IMG/VR virus record: IMGVR_UViG_3300031669_000048
Span: 1-47,914 of that record
Source: a virus
Length of the DNA stretch: 47,914 nt
Reading direction: 5' to 3' (one strand)
Part shown: positions 14,701-44,886 of the stretch, one piece after another
How positions within the stretch are numbered: position 1 is the first letter of the stretch
Layout: every line of letters starts with the position of its first letter
The notes under the pieces: model-generated
What the model was told of the DNA's origin: nothing
Database searches by the model: none
The model's input: only the letters and a program-made list of their open reading frames with translations
Translations under genes and position numbers: made by a program

Positions 14701-16272
14701 GCCTGTTTTTTCGCTTGCCCCAGTTCCAAACAAAACATCAACTATCCCCTTTACCTGCCTTAGCAAAGGTTCAGGACTTTTACCATACGCAGAAGAATGA
14801 AAGTCCCTAGCCACACTTAAAGCTAAATCAAGATCACCGGCAAAAGCCTCTGGCAGTTCTCCTTTAGCGGCCAATTTATGGGAAAGACTGACGTAAATTT
14901 TATTTACAGTTTCCTGCAAGTTATCCGGCTTAGTATGACCAAAGATATCTACCAGTTGCTTATCTTTCATTAATTTCTGCAAGGTTTCTTTAACCATATC
15001 GGGGGTTGCAGGACCATCTTTAGGCATCCTTGACATAGCCGAATCTAAAACCGCCTTATCTTCATTCGCCCCTATTTCATCTCTTTGATGGTACATTTCT
15101 TTTAACTGACCAAGCTCATCATCTGTTAATTTTGTTTCTTTACCTGTGATAGGATTCCTTCTCGGAGAAACACCTTTAAATGCTCCGATTAGTCCAGGCA
15201 CAGGGGCACCTAAAACTTCGCTTTCGCCATATTTTTTAATCAGGGCATCTTCATAATTATCAATTGCACTCTGTACTTCGCGGTAAGTTTTTGGACCACC
15301 GGTGGTATTCTGTCCTTGCATGGGCGTCTTGGAACTGATACTTTCAAGTTTTTCCCCCCGACTCCGTGGCGGTGCTTTTAAAAATCGTTCCATTTCAGTT
15401 GGTGGTAACTGTGCCGATTGTTTTGCTGTTGTATCTACCAATTCCCTTACAGTTGGTGGAACTGTTCTTCCCCGAACTGGTCTACCAACTGGAATAAAAG
15501 CCCCCCTACCGCCAAACATATTGATAATCAAATCTGCCGCCGCTATAGTTGCCCCTGATTTTATGAGTTGTTCCTTCATATTTTGCCGTTCTTCTGGCTC
15601 TAAAAGAGGATATGTTGCACCTGTGCCCGTTACCGCACCGGTAGCGGCTTTGGATGGACTTGATACTATGCGAGGTAGATTTTTTGGTAACAATTGTCCG
15701 GCGGTGCGAGCTCCAAACTCAAACCCCATTGCTGCAAGGATATCTTTGTTTACATCAGTAATTGTTGGTTTTTCCTCTTGAGGTGCCATTATTGTTTCAT
15801 ATGCAGCGTGCCCTAGTCCAGTAACCGCTCCTTTTTTGGCAAGATTAGAAATCAACGACAATCCTGTTCCTGCTGCTTTAACTCCTAATAATTCAGGAAC
15901 TAACGCTGCGCCCACCCAAGGAAGTGATTGGCCGACAAACTGCCCGACTTGTCCAGCTTTCTCAGCCGCTGGGATATTCATATCAGCTTGGTATTCCGGG
16001 GAAGGTTCTTGCCAGCCGTGCAGTTGGCCGTATGTTTTTACGGCATTATCCAGGTGTGCACCCTTCATTACTTCCTCGCCAAAGCGGTTTACGGCACCGA
16101 GAGCTTGTCTCCAAAACGGTATAGGTGTCTGCTCAGGTTGCGGTTCAGGGGCAGGTGTTTCTTGCTCCGGCAAGGCAGGTATACCAAAATTTCCTTCAAG
16201 GAAAGTTTTTTGTTGCTGACCGGTTGGCGGTGCACTAAAAGGCGTCCATTTTCCACTTTTATCGAAAGGCAT
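11776..16272 (-). CDS. Large polyvalent internal virion/ejection protein
   Basis: This 1498-residue protein is the largest in the genome. It opens with a Pro-rich segment, then hydrophobic Gly/Ala-rich stretches around residues 100-200 (VGQFVGQSLPWVGAALVPELLGVKAAGTG). Residues of roughly 1150-1330 (RRSGPVGQVLFQFKKYPIKQLEF, WIPFALISGYYAMPG) resemble the LPD38 domain found in polyvalent phage proteins. Such proteins are packaged and injected in podoviruses, building the DNA-ejection conduit. AGGAGG precedes the ATG. Proteolytic processing cannot be judged from sequence. Confidence 0.7.
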   Translation of the reverse strand: MPFDKSGKWTPFSAPPTGQQQKTFLEGNFGIPALPEQETPAPEPQPEQTPIPFWRQALGAVNRFGEEVMKGAHLDNAVKTYGQLHGWQEPSPEYQADMNIPAAEKAGQVGQFVGQSLPWVGAALVPELLGVKAAGTGLSLISNLAKKGAVTGLGHAAYETIMAPQEEKPTITDVNKDILAAMGFEFGARTAGQLLPKNLPRIVSSPSKAATGAVTGTGATYPLLEPEERQNMKEQLIKSGATIAAADLIINMFGGRGAFIPVGRPVRGRTVPPTVRELVDTTAKQSAQLPPTEMERFLKAPPRSRGEKLESISSKTPMQGQNTTGGPKTYREVQSAIDNYEDALIKKYGESEVLGAPVPGLIGAFKGVSPRRNPITGKETKLTDDELGQLKEMYHQRDEIGANEDKAVLDSAMSRMPKDGPATPDMVKETLQKLMKDKQLVDIFGHTKPDNLQETVNKIYVSLSHKLAAKGELPEAFAGDLDLALSVARDFHSSAYGKSPEPLLRQVKGIVDVLFGTGASEKTGLSKLITGGGVLESIETKQPWQMTREEWTQGRLNEYEGELNREKRLLTKNKEDPDSTRGRHIRNLELAVGTLKSGAPLETVNKQAVDYWSGHKNAIDLALSKGKPVPPEVLKDYPDLKPKDIQTTRAEIQSMDDVLKVNETPEGPIMLYSGIPAEKIAESVQKAAIKLQDALGIPEKGGKVEIVQRAEAQQPGLLTPFKSPSRVAQKYPEIKPYVESGNKATEVQERLRNVFNKRFAEIDKTLGGSSTIPITKPLEKVKAIAGVKSYKENKSALQEILLTGDMMGKKFTAAELRSEFGANDAVIRAYNLTRSAYDHAHTIASSVRELRGKTPVNYREGYIPHFFHSWFIVADGQVVGSAKTLREAVSISNPVVREKGIDIKIVPKTFEFPGADVQAAVLGDMKYFKLKSKVEKEFGISAADAQALLEGVARMKGRSRFVGNFLQRKGVQGWEKNLDWVNRHYFNMISRYAALDQFKSKAITQFERTFGSFDKDHTGTAKYIKDYINDINGNPTAVEELLNNSLAKVPGFSKFLGTFLGDRPSLQLASMTTNAVAIAKLGLYNVSSAMVNATQLINSYAKLGEKWTAQGLKMATRLTPTDRGILKQIGVDTQLGLESGAGYSKAGQMGKLFQNSLVLFKGVDTFLRRTSGLGAYHKAISEGKTRQQALEYAKQIIDQTQFNYSIAEAPAFIRRSGPVGQVLFQFKKYPIKQLEFITQLKGAENVRFWIPFALISGYYAMPGFELLKSSVKSMFNVDIDLEVKKHLMDWASDDPTKQKIAKTIMYGITSNAGVDISRRIGAGDYVPSQGRDFMGPTVSTVVNAAQLAAKKEWVEMLRAISPAAGNLALMLETDGKISDPWNRGRLKAKLKPEEKAMKALGFTTSGEAIERDKSKAIVYSEQRRKESEQKAIDGFIKTVQSKDRAAALNQVKALEKMGITPQRVMDEMKKKKMLPTQRAITNVPKKEVKEYIDIYKFK

Positions 16273-24040: not shown

Positions 24041-24921
24041 CTTCCGACGATACCGATGTTGTTAAGACATCCCGTCTGATAAATCGCGACCGCATTGTAA
24101 TAGAAGTTCTTTGTGCTGATCTTGTCCTGATCCTGGTCAAAGTCGTTTTTCATGAACCATTGGAACAGGATATGCTCGAACTTCTTGTCCCAGATAAACC
24201 ATGCGGTTTCACTGCTCATAAAGGTGCTGTAGTGCCAGTTGAGGCGCATTACTTTATTGGCAGTATTGGAAAGTTCGTAAGCCTTCAGGGTGCTGGCAGC
24301 GATTTCTTCCACCGTCTGCATATTAACCGCGTGGGTCAGACCATCGGATGGAGTTGATTTCATCGGATTGCCGGCGTGGTTTTTGAACCGCGCAAACATC
24401 TGCCGCGCAGTCTTCAGGTGGTCCGGATCCAGCGCGCCGGTGGTCAGGGTATCATTAAGAGTTCCAGGCGCATTGAGACACGGACGGCTGTTAGTGCAGA
24501 GAGGTACGCCATCTGCCAGGTTGGTGGCGAAGGCGTTATCCACCCAGCGTACTGCATTGGTTTCCTCAAGATCGCGCATGGTGTGAGAAAGTTCTTTGGC
24601 CTTTACGTCATTGACACAGCCATAAAGATCGTACTTAATTGCCTCCATGGTGTGAGAGTAACCATTGGCCCAGGTCTTGTTTGTAATGGTAGTCTGATAG
24701 GCTTGCCCTACCGAACCATACGAGATCGCGCCGCCCTCTGTTTTCTCAGAAGCAGCTTGTAAGTTGCCAATACTATCGTAGGTCTCAGCCTGCTTGGTGG
24801 CCTTTTTGGGAGTCGTAAACTCGGGGTACTCCACAGCAATCAAGTCCAGGTTCTTCGTAAAGATTTCCTTTTGTCCCGCCACAAGCATTCTGCTAATATC
24901 TGCGGTTACTGTGTATGCCAT
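24031..24921 (-). CDS. Major capsid protein
   Basis: This 296-residue protein has the size and motif pattern of an HK97-fold coat subunit of the Mu gpT-like group: an N-terminal arm, AETYDSIGNLQAASEKTEGGAISYGSVGQAYQTTITNKTWANGYSHTMEAIKYDLYG, a central GLTHAVNMQTVEEIAAS, and a C-terminal region with LNWHYSTFMSSETAWFIWDKK. Position after scaffold and portal in the order portal-scaffold-coat supports it. The ATG follows GAGGTGA. Confidence 0.8.
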   Translation of the reverse strand: MAYTVTADISRMLVAGQKEIFTKNLDLIAVEYPEFTTPKKATKQAETYDSIGNLQAASEKTEGGAISYGSVGQAYQTTITNKTWANGYSHTMEAIKYDLYGCVNDVKAKELSHTMRDLEETNAVRWVDNAFATNLADGVPLCTNSRPCLNAPGTLNDTLTTGALDPDHLKTARQMFARFKNHAGNPMKSTPSDGLTHAVNMQTVEEIAASTLKAYELSNTANKVMRLNWHYSTFMSSETAWFIWDKKFEHILFQWFMKNDFDQDQDKISTKNFYYNAVAIYQTGCLNNIGIVGSTG

Positions 24922-24949
24922 TTAAATCACCTCTTTATTCGTTAGTCAG

Positions 24950-41886: not shown

Positions 41887-41940
41887 GCTCCTCCTCGGCG
41901 CTGCTTGCGAAAATAATTTAAAAAACTTTTGAAAAATGTC

Positions 41941-41969
41941 TTGCGTTATACTTTTGACTGTGCTATGAT
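41941..41969 (+). promoter_or_regulatory. Promoter for the PP-loop operon
   Basis: TTGCGT and TATGAT are 17 bases apart with an extended TGC before the -10. It lies 34 bases before the first gene of the rightward operon. Confidence 0.6.
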
Positions 41970-42002
41970 TTAGGCAAGACAAAATTCAAAGGAGTGTTGA
42001 AG

Positions 42003-42185
42003 ATGATTAACAAGCAAACTATTGACCAAATCAAAGGCGAACTTGAAAAAGGTAATAAATACTTCATCCACCAAAACATGCTCAATAAAAGGGTACTTGG
42101 TCAACTCAAAAAAGTTGAGGGTTTTAAAATGGAACCCGCCAACGAATACGGCCACATGGTACTTAGTGCCAAAAGGAATCAGTAG
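42003..42185 (+). CDS. Small hypothetical protein
   Basis: This 60-residue protein starts at an ATG nine bases after GGAG. MINKQTIDQIKGELEKGNKYFIHQNMLNKRVLGQLKKVEGFKMEP looks like a compact alpha/beta domain. Its TAG shares a base with the GTG start of the next gene, so the two are coupled. It resembles small adapter proteins of PP-loop loci, but no family was recognised. Confidence 0.5.
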   Translation: MINKQTIDQIKGELEKGNKYFIHQNMLNKRVLGQLKKVEGFKMEPANEYGHMVLSAKRNQ

Positions 42186-42964
42186 TGAAAACACTACACG
42201 TCGTTTTGCTATCGGGTGGTTTATCAAGTTCCTTCACCCTACATCATGTTGTAAAGCAATATGGCCGGGAAAGTGTCGTTGCCTTACACACAGATACCAC
42301 ATGGGAGGATGAGGACAATTACCGTTTTATTGATGAGGTAATTTCTCACCACAACGTCAATATCGCGCACAGAATCGACGGTCGCACGCCTCCCGAAGTT
42401 TGGTTTAAAACTCGCTACCTTGTCGGCAAGAACCTTGCCAAATGTTCGCTTGAGTTAAAGACGAAGCAAACCTTAAAATATGTCGATGACTTACAGTCCC
42501 AGGGCATTGAACCGATTCTCTATTTTGGCATCGGCAAGGAAGAAGAACATCGGGCCATTAACCTCTCTTATAGATACGCCCCGGTAGAATGTCGCTTTCC
42601 CCTGGTTGATAATCCGTTAAGTAAAGAATATATGAAGGCTACTTGTGAATCAAAATGGAAAATACAAATTCCCCGCATGTACCGCCTTGGTTTTAGCCAT
42701 TCAAACTGTGGAGGACGTTGCATAAAAGGTGGCCTTGGACACTTTGCCCGACTTTATGAAGTTTGGCCAGAACGATTTAAAGAGGTTGAACAATACGAAA
42801 AGCTGTTCCGGCAAAAGATTAATCCCAAGATTGCAATCCTCAAGGATCGCAGAGGTGGTAAAATAAAATATGTTACGCTTGAATCTTTCAGGAAGCGCAT
42901 TGTTAAGGGAACGCTTTTCGACATCCAGGAAATTGATTATACTCCCTGCGAATGTATGTATTAA
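42185..42964 (+). CDS. PP-loop ATPase (PAPS reductase/adenylyl-sulfate-type family)
   Basis: This 259-residue protein has the PP-loop SGGLSSSF (residues 10-17) near an LHVVLLSGG strand, typical of the PAPS reductase/DndC-like superfamily that adenylates substrates. Further motifs are HTDTTWEDEDNYRF and a C-terminal FSHSNCGGRCIKGGLGHFARLYEVWPERF cysteine cluster for a possible Fe-S or thiol function. Phages carry relatives of unknown role, some paired with ParB-like proteins, as here on the facing operon. Confidence 0.7.
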   Translation: MKTLHVVLLSGGLSSSFTLHHVVKQYGRESVVALHTDTTWEDEDNYRFIDEVISHHNVNIAHRIDGRTPPEVWFKTRYLVGKNLAKCSLELKTKQTLKYVDDLQSQGIEPILYFGIGKEEEHRAINLSYRYAPVECRFPLVDNPLSKEYMKATCESKWKIQIPRMYRLGFSHSNCGGRCIKGGLGHFARLYEVWPERFKEVEQYEKLFRQKINPKIAILKDRRGGKIKYVTLESFRKRIVKGTLFDIQEIDYTPCECMY

Positions 42965-42977
42965 AGGAGCTGACCAT

Positions 42978-43169
42978 ATGACACCCAAAGGCGGTAAGCG
43001 CCTCAATGCGGGGCGCAAACCTTCCGCAGATAAGCGGATTCAGCGCACGGTTAGACTTAGCCAGGAAGAATATGAAGCCATTATGCAAAGGGCCAGCGCC
43101 GAAGGCATCACCTTTAGCGAATACATGAGGCGCAAGGCACGCGAAGCCCACCCCCCCGAACAAAAATAG
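42978..43169 (+). CDS. Ribbon-helix-helix protein
   Basis: This 63-residue protein begins GGKRLNAGRKPSADKRIQRTVRLSQEEYEAIMQRASAEGITFSEYMRRKAREAH, with the RHH strand (RIQRTVRLS) and two helices. The opening is widespread in phage and plasmid regulators. The ATG at GGAGC is preferred. It could regulate this operon, as Aca-type proteins regulate anti-CRISPR operons, but no direct evidence exists. Confidence 0.6.
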   Translation: MTPKGGKRLNAGRKPSADKRIQRTVRLSQEEYEAIMQRASAEGITFSEYMRRKAREAHPPEQK

Positions 43170-43178
43170 GAAGGATGG

Positions 43179-43421
43179 ATGAAGATGAATAAACGTAAAA
43201 TATGCGGATACTGCCACGGATACCGTGATATGGAGTATATTGGAATACGGGAACAACACGTAGAAAAATATAGACCATACAGTGGACGTAGGCTTCTTGC
43301 ACCAAGGCCAGCAGTACACAAAGCAGAAATATGGCAATGCATAACTTGCGGCGGCCAGGGAACTTATAACGAAGAAACTATATATCATTCCGCTAAAAGA
43401 GGAGCAAAGAAAAAAGCCTAA
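43179..43421 (+). CDS. Zinc-binding small protein
   Basis: This 80-residue protein has CGYCHGYRDM and CITCGGQGTY, two CxxC pairs like DnaJ zinc modules, around a basic centre. The ATG follows AGGAAGG. It is the last gene of the PP-loop operon before the terminator. Confidence 0.55.
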   Translation: MKMNKRKICGYCHGYRDMEYIGIREQHVEKYRPYSGRRLLAPRPAVHKAEIWQCITCGGQGTYNEETIYHSAKRGAKKKA

Positions 43422-43445
43422 CCCCCCCCGGGGTTTTTCTTTTCC
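43420..43445 (+). terminator. Terminator of the PP-loop operon
   Basis: ACCCC-CCCC-GGGGT followed by TTTTCTTTT is a strong intrinsic terminator. It ends rightward transcription 150 bases before the converging small-RNA terminator. Confidence 0.75.
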
Positions 43446-43584
43446 CCTTGCGGGACCTCCGGCCTGGTCGCCCAGGTCGCGGAGATTATTATAATTTCCC
43501 GGCCTGCGTAACATGCCGGCATGGTTTCGCGGGGCCTGCGAACGCGCAAGCCCATATAATAAATCAACCGGTTGGGGTATATAC
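43446..43584. other. Non-coding gap with a palindrome and direct repeats
   Basis: No credible ORF was found. It contains the 12-bp palindrome CATGCCGGCATG (43512-43523) between two direct repeats of GGCCTGCG (43501-43508 and 43533-43540), possibly a protein-binding site. It lies between two converging terminators. Confidence 0.4.
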
Positions 43585-43587
43585 GCA

Positions 43588-43612
43588 CAAACAAAAGCAC
43601 CCTTGCGGGTGC
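43588..43612 (-). terminator. Terminator of the solitary-repeat RNA
   Basis: On the reverse strand GCACCC-GCAA-GGGTGC is followed by TTTTGTTTG. It is a strong intrinsic terminator, 60 bases beyond the CRISPR repeat. Confidence 0.8.
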
Positions 43613-43671
43613 GGTGGTCTCGTGTGGGGCTGTTGACGCAACCCCACGGGATGATGTCCAATGTCAATTTA

Positions 43672-43703
43672 GTTTCAATCCACGCTCCCGCACGGGGAGC
43701 GAC
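43672..43703 (-). CRISPR. Solitary type I-C CRISPR repeat (single copy)
   Basis: The 32-bp reverse-strand sequence runs from GTCGCTCCCC to GGATTGAAAC and is a recognisable type I-C repeat. It has the I-C stem (CGCTCCC with GGGAGCG, loop CGTGC) and the GTGGATTGAAAC 3' handle. There is only one copy in the window and no spacers or cas genes, so it is not an array. Translated, it gives VSIHAPARGAT, a well-known spurious product of this repeat. Confidence 0.9.
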
Positions 43704-43727
43704 TAAATGGGCGTGCTATACACCATT

Positions 43728-43757
43728 ACCATACCATGTCCACTATTCGACTGTCAA
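43728..43757 (-). promoter_or_regulatory. Promoter for the solitary-repeat RNA
   Basis: On the reverse strand a perfect TTGACA (43752-43757) and TATGGT (43728-43733) are 18 bases apart, with TGG just before the -10 (extended -10). The -35 overlaps the stop codon of the upstream gene. It would start transcription about 18 bases before the repeat. Confidence 0.65.
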
Positions 43758-44041
43758 CACTCCATATACAAACTCCTGAAGTTTTTCGGCGGCTTCTTGC
43801 GTTTTTTACATTTACTTTTGGAGCTCCTACCGGACGGCTCCCCCGGCGGCAACGCCTCCTTCTCCTTCCGATCCGGCGGGCTTGTCTTGGCCCACCAACA
43901 CCAAAACCCATCCGCTTCCCAGGGATCTTCCTGCTCGTTCCTCTCCCGGATAGCCTCCACACTGGCAGCAGCGGCGCGGTTAACGCCCCTCTTCGCCGCT
44001 TCATTTGCTAGTTGTAGATCCACCCTTTGGTCTTCGTCCAT
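43754..44041 (-). CDS. Hypothetical Lys/Pro-rich protein
   Basis: This 95-residue protein starts at an ATG after a GGGGGGGTGCGGGG stretch. MDEDQRVDLQLANEAAKRGVNRAAAASVEAIRERNEQEDPW is followed by a basic KRKKPP tail. No family was recognised. It is the gene directly upstream of the solitary-repeat RNA, whose -35 box overlaps its stop. Confidence 0.5.
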   Translation of the reverse strand: MDEDQRVDLQLANEAAKRGVNRAAAASVEAIRERNEQEDPWEADGFWCWWAKTSPPDRKEKEALPPGEPSGRSSKSKCKKRKKPPKNFRSLYMEC

Positions 44042-44066
44042 CCCCGCACCCCCCCCTGGATTTTGT

Positions 44067-44441
44067 CTATCGGCGAAGTATATATAAAAGCGCAGAAGCA
44101 ACCGCGTCCTCCCTGCTCTCACCTGTAAACGTCGCATACTTCGTGTGTACCGTAGCCGACAGCCAGTAGATGTCACAGCCGTATCCACCGTCTTTGAGCG
44201 ATACCGAGTCGGCGTTCCAGCCGCGCCGCTCGATCTCCGCCAGCAGTTGATCAAGGAGGGGAAGCCAGACAATATGCCCATCGCCAACCCATTTTTTGGC
44301 TGAGTCAGCATGGTCCTGCCGCATGATGCAAATCACTTCAGACCAAGGTTCCTCTGGATGGACTTGATATAAATCATATCTTTTCGGCTCCCACACTAGC
44401 CCCGCAGATTTCAGCGCCTTTGCTTTCTCCAGGCTAATCAA
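44067..44441 (-). CDS. Phage hypothetical protein
   Basis: This 124-residue protein starts at TTG overlapping the previous stop (TTGA), with GGAGGGGG eight bases upstream. SLEKAKALKSAGLVWEPKRYDLYQVHPEEPWSEVICIMRQDHADSAKK resembles a small phage protein family with a substrate-like beta region. No function is recognised. Confidence 0.6.
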   Translation of the reverse strand: MISLEKAKALKSAGLVWEPKRYDLYQVHPEEPWSEVICIMRQDHADSAKKWVGDGHIVWLPLLDQLLAEIERRGWNADSVSLKDGGYGCDIYWLSATVHTKYATFTGESREDAVASALLYILRR

Positions 44442-44632
44442 GGTAATACCCCCTCCACAACAGGCTTTAAAGGGCAGTCGTCTCTTCTTTTGTCTTTGCA
44501 AATTTCTATACCACCGCTCATTCGCGCTATTGTTAAAGCGCCGCAATAATACCCGGGAACCAATTGACTGCCGACACAAAAAGGACACTTCATGCAGTTT
44601 TCAGGCATTTCTATTTCGATTGTAGCCCTCAA
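44438..44632 (-). CDS. Small zinc-binding protein
   Basis: This 64-residue ORF begins MRATIEIEMPENCMKCPFCVGSQLVPGYYCG, with CMKCPFC and more Cys, plus a later CKDKRRDDC. It starts at TTG coupled to the upstream stop. It resembles small phage zinc proteins. Confidence 0.55.
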   Translation of the reverse strand: MRATIEIEMPENCMKCPFCVGSQLVPGYYCGALTIARMSGGIEICKDKRRDDCPLKPVVEGVLP

Positions 44633-44886
44633 GGTTCAACCCCCCTACTTTTGGCGAGTGCTGTGTCAAGCCCCTTAACCCACACCTCCTCGACCTTGAA
44701 GGTGTCACGCTCACTTTTTGGATCATAGTGGGCATGTTTTATTAATTCTTCCGACGCCTCCACCAGCGGCCAGAGGTCTATAGTTTCGAGAGCCACTTTT
44801 GCCACTGTGAGCGGGTCATCGCAACCCATATCCGCGAAGTGTATCTCTGCCGCCACCCGTTCAATAATCTCCTCGCGGCTGCTCAT
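44629..44886 (-). CDS. Hypothetical protein
   Basis: This 85-residue protein begins SREEIIERVAAEIHFADMGCDDPLTVAKVALETIDLWPLVEASEELI, an all-helical fold. The ATG overlaps the previous stop (ATGA). No family was recognised. Confidence 0.55.
   Translation of the reverse strand: MSSREEIIERVAAEIHFADMGCDDPLTVAKVALETIDLWPLVEASEELIKHAHYDPKSERDTFKVEEVWVKGLDTALAKSRGVEP

Follow-up and report, generated by a model that had tools for sequence, protein, structure and literature searches.

How does a single CRISPR repeat come to stand in a phage genome, and could it act there as an RNA anti-CRISPR (Racr)? The question is raised by a DNA stretch of 47,914 nt (the window), whose minus strand, on which all sequences below are read, carries at 43672-43703 the sequence GTCGCTCCCCGTGCGGGAGCGTGGATTGAAAC, an exact 32-nt type I-C CRISPR repeat. 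In the parts of PMC10651486 available to us, 2,103 solitary repeats are catalogued in viral sequences, so that the kind of repeat seen here is already known, and promoter-adjacent solitary repeats are reported to inhibit CRISPR, with one I-C case (RacrIC1) tested. We favour, with moderate confidence, the reading that the window holds a host-type I-C repeat in a phage small-RNA gene and that this locus is a candidate Racr against a type I-C host. The new element is a comparison with and without the repeat in one conserved small-RNA gene, which we did not find described in the accessible portions of the literature.

An exact and solitary type I-C repeat

When the window was searched with the I-C consensus, allowing up to 3 mismatches, a single site with 0 mismatches was obtained, as a first-pass annotation of this DNA had claimed, and 100 shuffles gave 0 matches. 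The absence of a second repeat, also claimed there, was borne out, the next-best resemblance in an ungapped comparison over the whole window amounting to only 20/32, at 15617. The ends of the window carry an exact 127-bp direct terminal repeat, and it therefore probably represents a complete phage genome, so that the lack of a second repeat is likely genuine; recognisable phage proteins are a terminase, a portal, head proteins and a gp3 packaging protein. Rfam gave no match above the gathering score for the locus, and a sub-threshold CRISPR-DR9 match spanned exactly the 32 nt. In the folding check for which the annotation had called, the repeat stem formed, with -13 kcal/mol and a z of -2.5 for the repeat alone, and it was also predicted within the transcript.

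A solitary repeat unit in the sense of SRUFinder lies between genes, shares at least 90% identity with a known CRISPR repeat and has 100-bp flanks free of partial repeats (>70%). The repeat studied here is identical (32/32) to repeats of real I-C arrays, lies between an ORF ending at 43754 and a facing ORF ending at 43421, and has no other partial repeat near it; a 32-bp length difference among related loci argues against a reading frame across it. With regard to what is expected of a Racr, a stem-loop is predicted for the repeat and its sequence is identical to I-C repeats beside cas8c.

The same repeat in bacterial arrays

An exact match to the first 31 bases of the repeat occurs in 84 bacterial genome stretches, the majority of them belonging to arrays. 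Three arrays with this repeat adjoin Csd1 (Cas8c) and Cas7; two of the three also have a confirmed Cas1, and one a confirmed Cas4. Across 45 arrays, conservation is confined to exactly these 32 columns, the bases before and after being random. Judged by its sequence, the repeat is a genuine I-C repeat. Most arrays with this repeat have a GGTTCGC-type leader motif, which is absent upstream of the repeat in the window, and local alignments of this upstream sequence with 50 host leaders scored at the shuffled level. The upstream sequence is thus unlike leaders, which argues that the phage repeat is not an excised array end.

The best homologues of the terminase encoded in the window, with about 57-66% identity, were found in one genome, and the repeat was absent from 12 genomes of the order of that homologue; a second host query returned nothing. 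When spacers of arrays with I-C-like repeats (fetched loci) were compared with the window, there was no full-length match.

The same repeat was also noted in solitary form elsewhere. In a Dehalococcoidia MAG (L008, 2104-2134), where it ends in T, it lies just before a start codon between BKACE and short-chain dehydrogenase genes, both of them metabolic. In contig IMGVR 3300037104_000061 (L002, 3055-3086), an identical repeat directly follows the stop codon of the N-terminal half of a terminase, and a terminase-like C-terminal half resumes in the same frame past the repeat, as in a split gene or an assembly join.

Architecture of the small-RNA locus

Features of the locus are given in Table 1. 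The extended promoter and the terminator described in the annotation are indeed present; by count, neither was remarkable in a 3.5-kb scan, yet both are conserved in relatives, the promoter being kept in four loci and the terminator in three. The -35 element overlaps the stop codon of the upstream ORF, and the promoter lies about 25 nt upstream of the repeat, which itself stands about 18 nt downstream of the predicted transcript start. The predicted transcript extends from about 43721 to 43593, roughly 130 nt. Its body consists, in this order, of a 24-nt stretch with little structure, a 9-bp hairpin GTGGGGTTG...CAGCCCCAC, and the terminator.

Table 1. Coordinates of predicted and observed features at the small-RNA locus of the window.
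Feature	Position	Strand	Remarks
Upstream ORF, 96 aa	43754..44044	-	no known family; final gene of the leftward operon, ahead of the small RNA
Promoter	43728..43757	-	TTGACA, 18 nt, TATGGT; extended -10 (TGG TATGGT); kept in L088, L090 and L089
Predicted 5' leader of the transcript, ending CCCATTTA	43704..43721	-	from sequence and alignment; putative start at about 43721
Solitary type I-C repeat	43672..43703	-	one 32-nt array unit between ATTTA and TAAAT
Predicted Cas5c cut	between 43683 and 43682	-	3' base of the repeat stem
Predicted 11-nt 5' handle TGGATTGAAAC	43672..43682	-	deduced from I-C processing (PMC5965380)
Small-RNA body, 79 nt including the T-tract	43593..43671	-	96-97.5% identity in L089/L090; absent from L088/G001
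Intrinsic terminator GCACCC-GCAA-GGGTGC, then TTTTGTTTG	43597..43612	-	kept in L089/L090

No antisense target with a complement of at least 12 nt to the small RNA was found within the window, the sole 11-nt complement being a terminator-like sequence. An accessory cassette at 42185-43421 (+) faces the small RNA and encodes a PAPS-reductase-like enzyme (PHROG moron class, with a weak SspD match), a ribbon-helix-helix protein and an 80-aa protein of no assigned function.

Related phage loci with and without the repeat

For comparison, the viral collection yielded only three loci, which come from two JGI samples whose numbers lie close together. L090 and L089 are separate loci of one 80-kb contig (G002), and L088/L003 belongs to contig G001. 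At L090 the sequence reads CCCATTTA/TAAATTGACATTGGACATC... and at L089 CTTATTTA/TAAATTG..., the slash marking the site at which the window has its repeat; both loci possess promoter, hairpin and terminator and lack the repeat. Exactly the 32 repeat bases are missing from them, and ATTTA and TAAAT are directly joined, whereas in the window the repeat stands between these pentamers, with neither a target duplication nor microhomology. G001 has kept promoter and repeat but lacks the 79-nt body, with a deletion that begins immediately after the last base of the repeat. Since L090 and L089 have promoter, body and terminator but no repeat, the annotation was wrong in assigning the repeat its own promoter and terminator: both are parts of a small-RNA gene that does without it. 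Additional repeats or spacers in related phages, which the annotation had named as evidence for a degraded array, were found at none of the L088, L089 and L090 loci.

The small-RNA body is 96-97.5% identical among the window, L090 and L089 and the adjacent ORF only 81-86%, and the small RNA itself therefore seems to be under selection. In the adjacent ORF, the distance between L090 and L089 equals the distance of each from the window, so that a single gain of the repeat in the line of the window and G001 is simpler than two exact losses; we favour such a single gain, the rooting not being decisive. The window and G001 are 98% identical over 41890-44696, except in the 3' region of the small RNA and the stretch after it. 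They are mosaic relatives, and their structural genes show no match at the DNA level. From these alignments, the repeat forms a separate module inside an existing phage small-RNA gene, to which it was probably added, and the locus appears to show a solitary repeat arriving as a single intact 32-base unit.

A search of viral contigs for more distant copies of the small-RNA body retrieved only the two in G002; contig L194 shares an 18-nt hairpin motif of the small RNA. The two G002 copies (L190-L193), at 24731-24939 and 68351-68533, have diverged and are separated by about 43.6 kb, which looks like a tandem of two related phages.

How the hybrid RNA could inhibit a type I-C system

In the sections of PMC5965380 consulted, type I-C Cas5 (Cas5d/c) is described as cutting the repeat into an 11-nt 5' handle and a 21-nt 3' hairpin, on which it stays after cleavage. 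Placement of one complete host-type I-C repeat into the phage small-RNA gene would yield a hybrid RNA of roughly 130 nt. The repeat stem would be bound by Cas5c, which processes pre-crRNA in type I-C, and cleavage at the 3' base of the stem would release a piece of about 40 nt that ends in the repeat hairpin and a piece of about 90 nt that starts with the 11-nt handle and continues with some 24 weakly structured, guide-like nt, the 9-bp hairpin and the terminator hairpin. These pieces could keep Cas5c bound and seed Cas7/Cas8c assemblies that are incomplete or do not target, and thereby compete with real crRNAs, leaving Cas subunits occupied and nothing targeted. Transcription, cleavage, subunit capture and inhibition are steps that we infer for this locus.

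By analogy, the proposal matches the sequestration model for RacrIF1 and the RacrIC1 case, as far as both are set out in the parts of PMC10651486 at hand. RacrIC1, from a Bifidobacterium pseudocatenulatum prophage, is likewise a solitary type I-C repeat in a phage; it is transcribed and inhibits the type I-C system in PAO1::IC. For RacrIC1, transcription runs on from acrIC5 and gives a bicistronic RNA, whereas the present repeat lies in a stand-alone small-RNA gene with its terminator, close behind a promoter and with no recognisable acr beside it. RacrIF1, from a Thiocystis violascens prophage, belongs to type I-F and depends on Cas6f, while the nuclease here would be Cas5c. The effect of RacrIF1 comes chiefly from the long RNA that precedes the cleavage site and is coated by Cas7f; the corresponding upstream piece would measure only about 40 nt in our case.

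The presence of the repeat in two mosaic phages with differing structural genes speaks for a role as Racr. Against such a role, the persistence of the small RNA without the repeat in L090 and L089 indicates that the small-RNA gene does not require it, acr or aca families known to Pfam, PHROGs, PADLOC or NCBIfam were not found beside the repeat, and the flanks ATTTA and TAAAT can pair and could partly mask the handle. Of the Racr interpretation in the annotation, the portrayal of an exact, solitary, transcribable and intergenic I-C repeat fits published Racr candidates; the part resting on a dedicated promoter and terminator fell, and an acr/aca neighbour of known family is lacking.

Alternative explanations

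The alternative that survives best, although we regard it as unlikely, is that chance recombination with a host array put the repeat into a small-RNA gene, where it would ride along with no anti-CRISPR role while promoter and terminator serve the original small RNA. The occurrence of promoter, body and terminator without the repeat in L090 and L089 agrees with such a passenger, as does the fact that the conservation signal is carried by the body and not by the repeat; furthermore, the two repeat-bearing phages are 98% identical here, so that the identity of their repeats is no evidence of selection. However, the insertion comprises exactly one whole unmutated unit just after a promoter, as described for Racrs, and G001 has kept repeat and promoter although the body is gone.

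It is very improbable that the transcript provides a guide, i.e., that a crRNA formed from the repeat and the sequence downstream steers host I-C Cascade to repeat-less relatives. In favour of a guide, the phages without the repeat have an almost identical copy of the 79 nt that follow it in the window, and phage mini-arrays against relatives are on record in the available text of PMC11656645. However, the bases before the would-be protospacer in L089 and L090 are TTA and not the I-C PAM TTC, and with this wrong PAM a guide against relatives was rejected. In addition, a second repeat is missing, the guide-like stretch before the hairpin (24 nt) is shorter than the 27 nt needed in one I-C system, and a different sequence follows the repeat in G001. 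Viral CRISPR mini-arrays such as those of SPV1/SPV2 (PMC6858448 and PMC11656645, as far as available) share with the window a host-type repeat in a virus; unlike them, the window has no spacer between repeats, no second repeat and no PAM at a would-be target.

We give equally little credence to a remnant of a CRISPR array or mini-array carried by the phage, or to a site through which the phage would recombine into host arrays. The repeat is of exact host type, and the consulted part of PMC10651486 mentions a proposal that links solitary repeats to phage integration into arrays; against this, the window contains no second or decayed repeat and no leader motif, and relatives have the same site empty rather than with more repeats. 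A degraded array or mini-array was rejected for want of a second repeat and a leader: both the window and the G001 locus have a single repeat, and the window shows no array leader.

Least probable, and barely credible, is an assembly chimera in which a host array was joined to phage sequence via a shared spacer/protospacer; such joins may exist in the collection (L109 is an example), but the window has no flank duplication. The repeat stands at an identical base position in the window and G001, which differ by a substitution about 24 nt upstream and in the sequence that follows, so that one position would have had to give rise to separate chimeras; the exact 127-bp overlap of the termini points to assembly with k=127. 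A spacer/protospacer chimera was rejected on the missing duplication and the site common to two phages. In L109 (8600-8950), an I-C repeat interrupts, by eye, a transposase-like frame, with a copy of a 34-bp duplication on either side and TTC in front of the upstream one; it looks like a spacer/protospacer chimera and is a warning for surveys of solitary repeats.

Movement of solitary repeats

With thousands of viral solitary repeats catalogued, the relatives of the window bear on how such repeats arise. They form a natural set at one site, with promoter and body, promoter, repeat and body, or promoter and repeat. If the repeat is inhibitory, this would be a matched set for determining the contribution of the repeat by itself and whether a small RNA already in place acts as scaffold. 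A caution follows as well: where a solitary repeat is enclosed by a promoter and a terminator, these may have evolved for something else. As a speculative generalization, to which we attach a low probability, complete repeats with exact boundaries may be transferred into phage small-RNA genes, giving in one step an anti-CRISPR hybrid with conserved hairpins as scaffold, the boundaries perhaps being set by host Cas1-Cas2.

The insertion point in the window is the centre of the 10-bp palindrome ATTTA/TAAAT. A perfect 10-bp flank palindrome was seen at 2 of the 49 solitary repeats (at 43672 in the window and, as TCCTT/AAGGA, at 2801 in L119), where about 0.05 would be expected, the comparison being post hoc. 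Contig IMGVR 3300031673_000079 bears three dispersed solitary copies of a different I-C repeat (L094, 6125; L096, 358 and 955), and two of the three share nearly the same upstream sequence of about 21 nt, GGTGATATCTTCARTATCTGCG.
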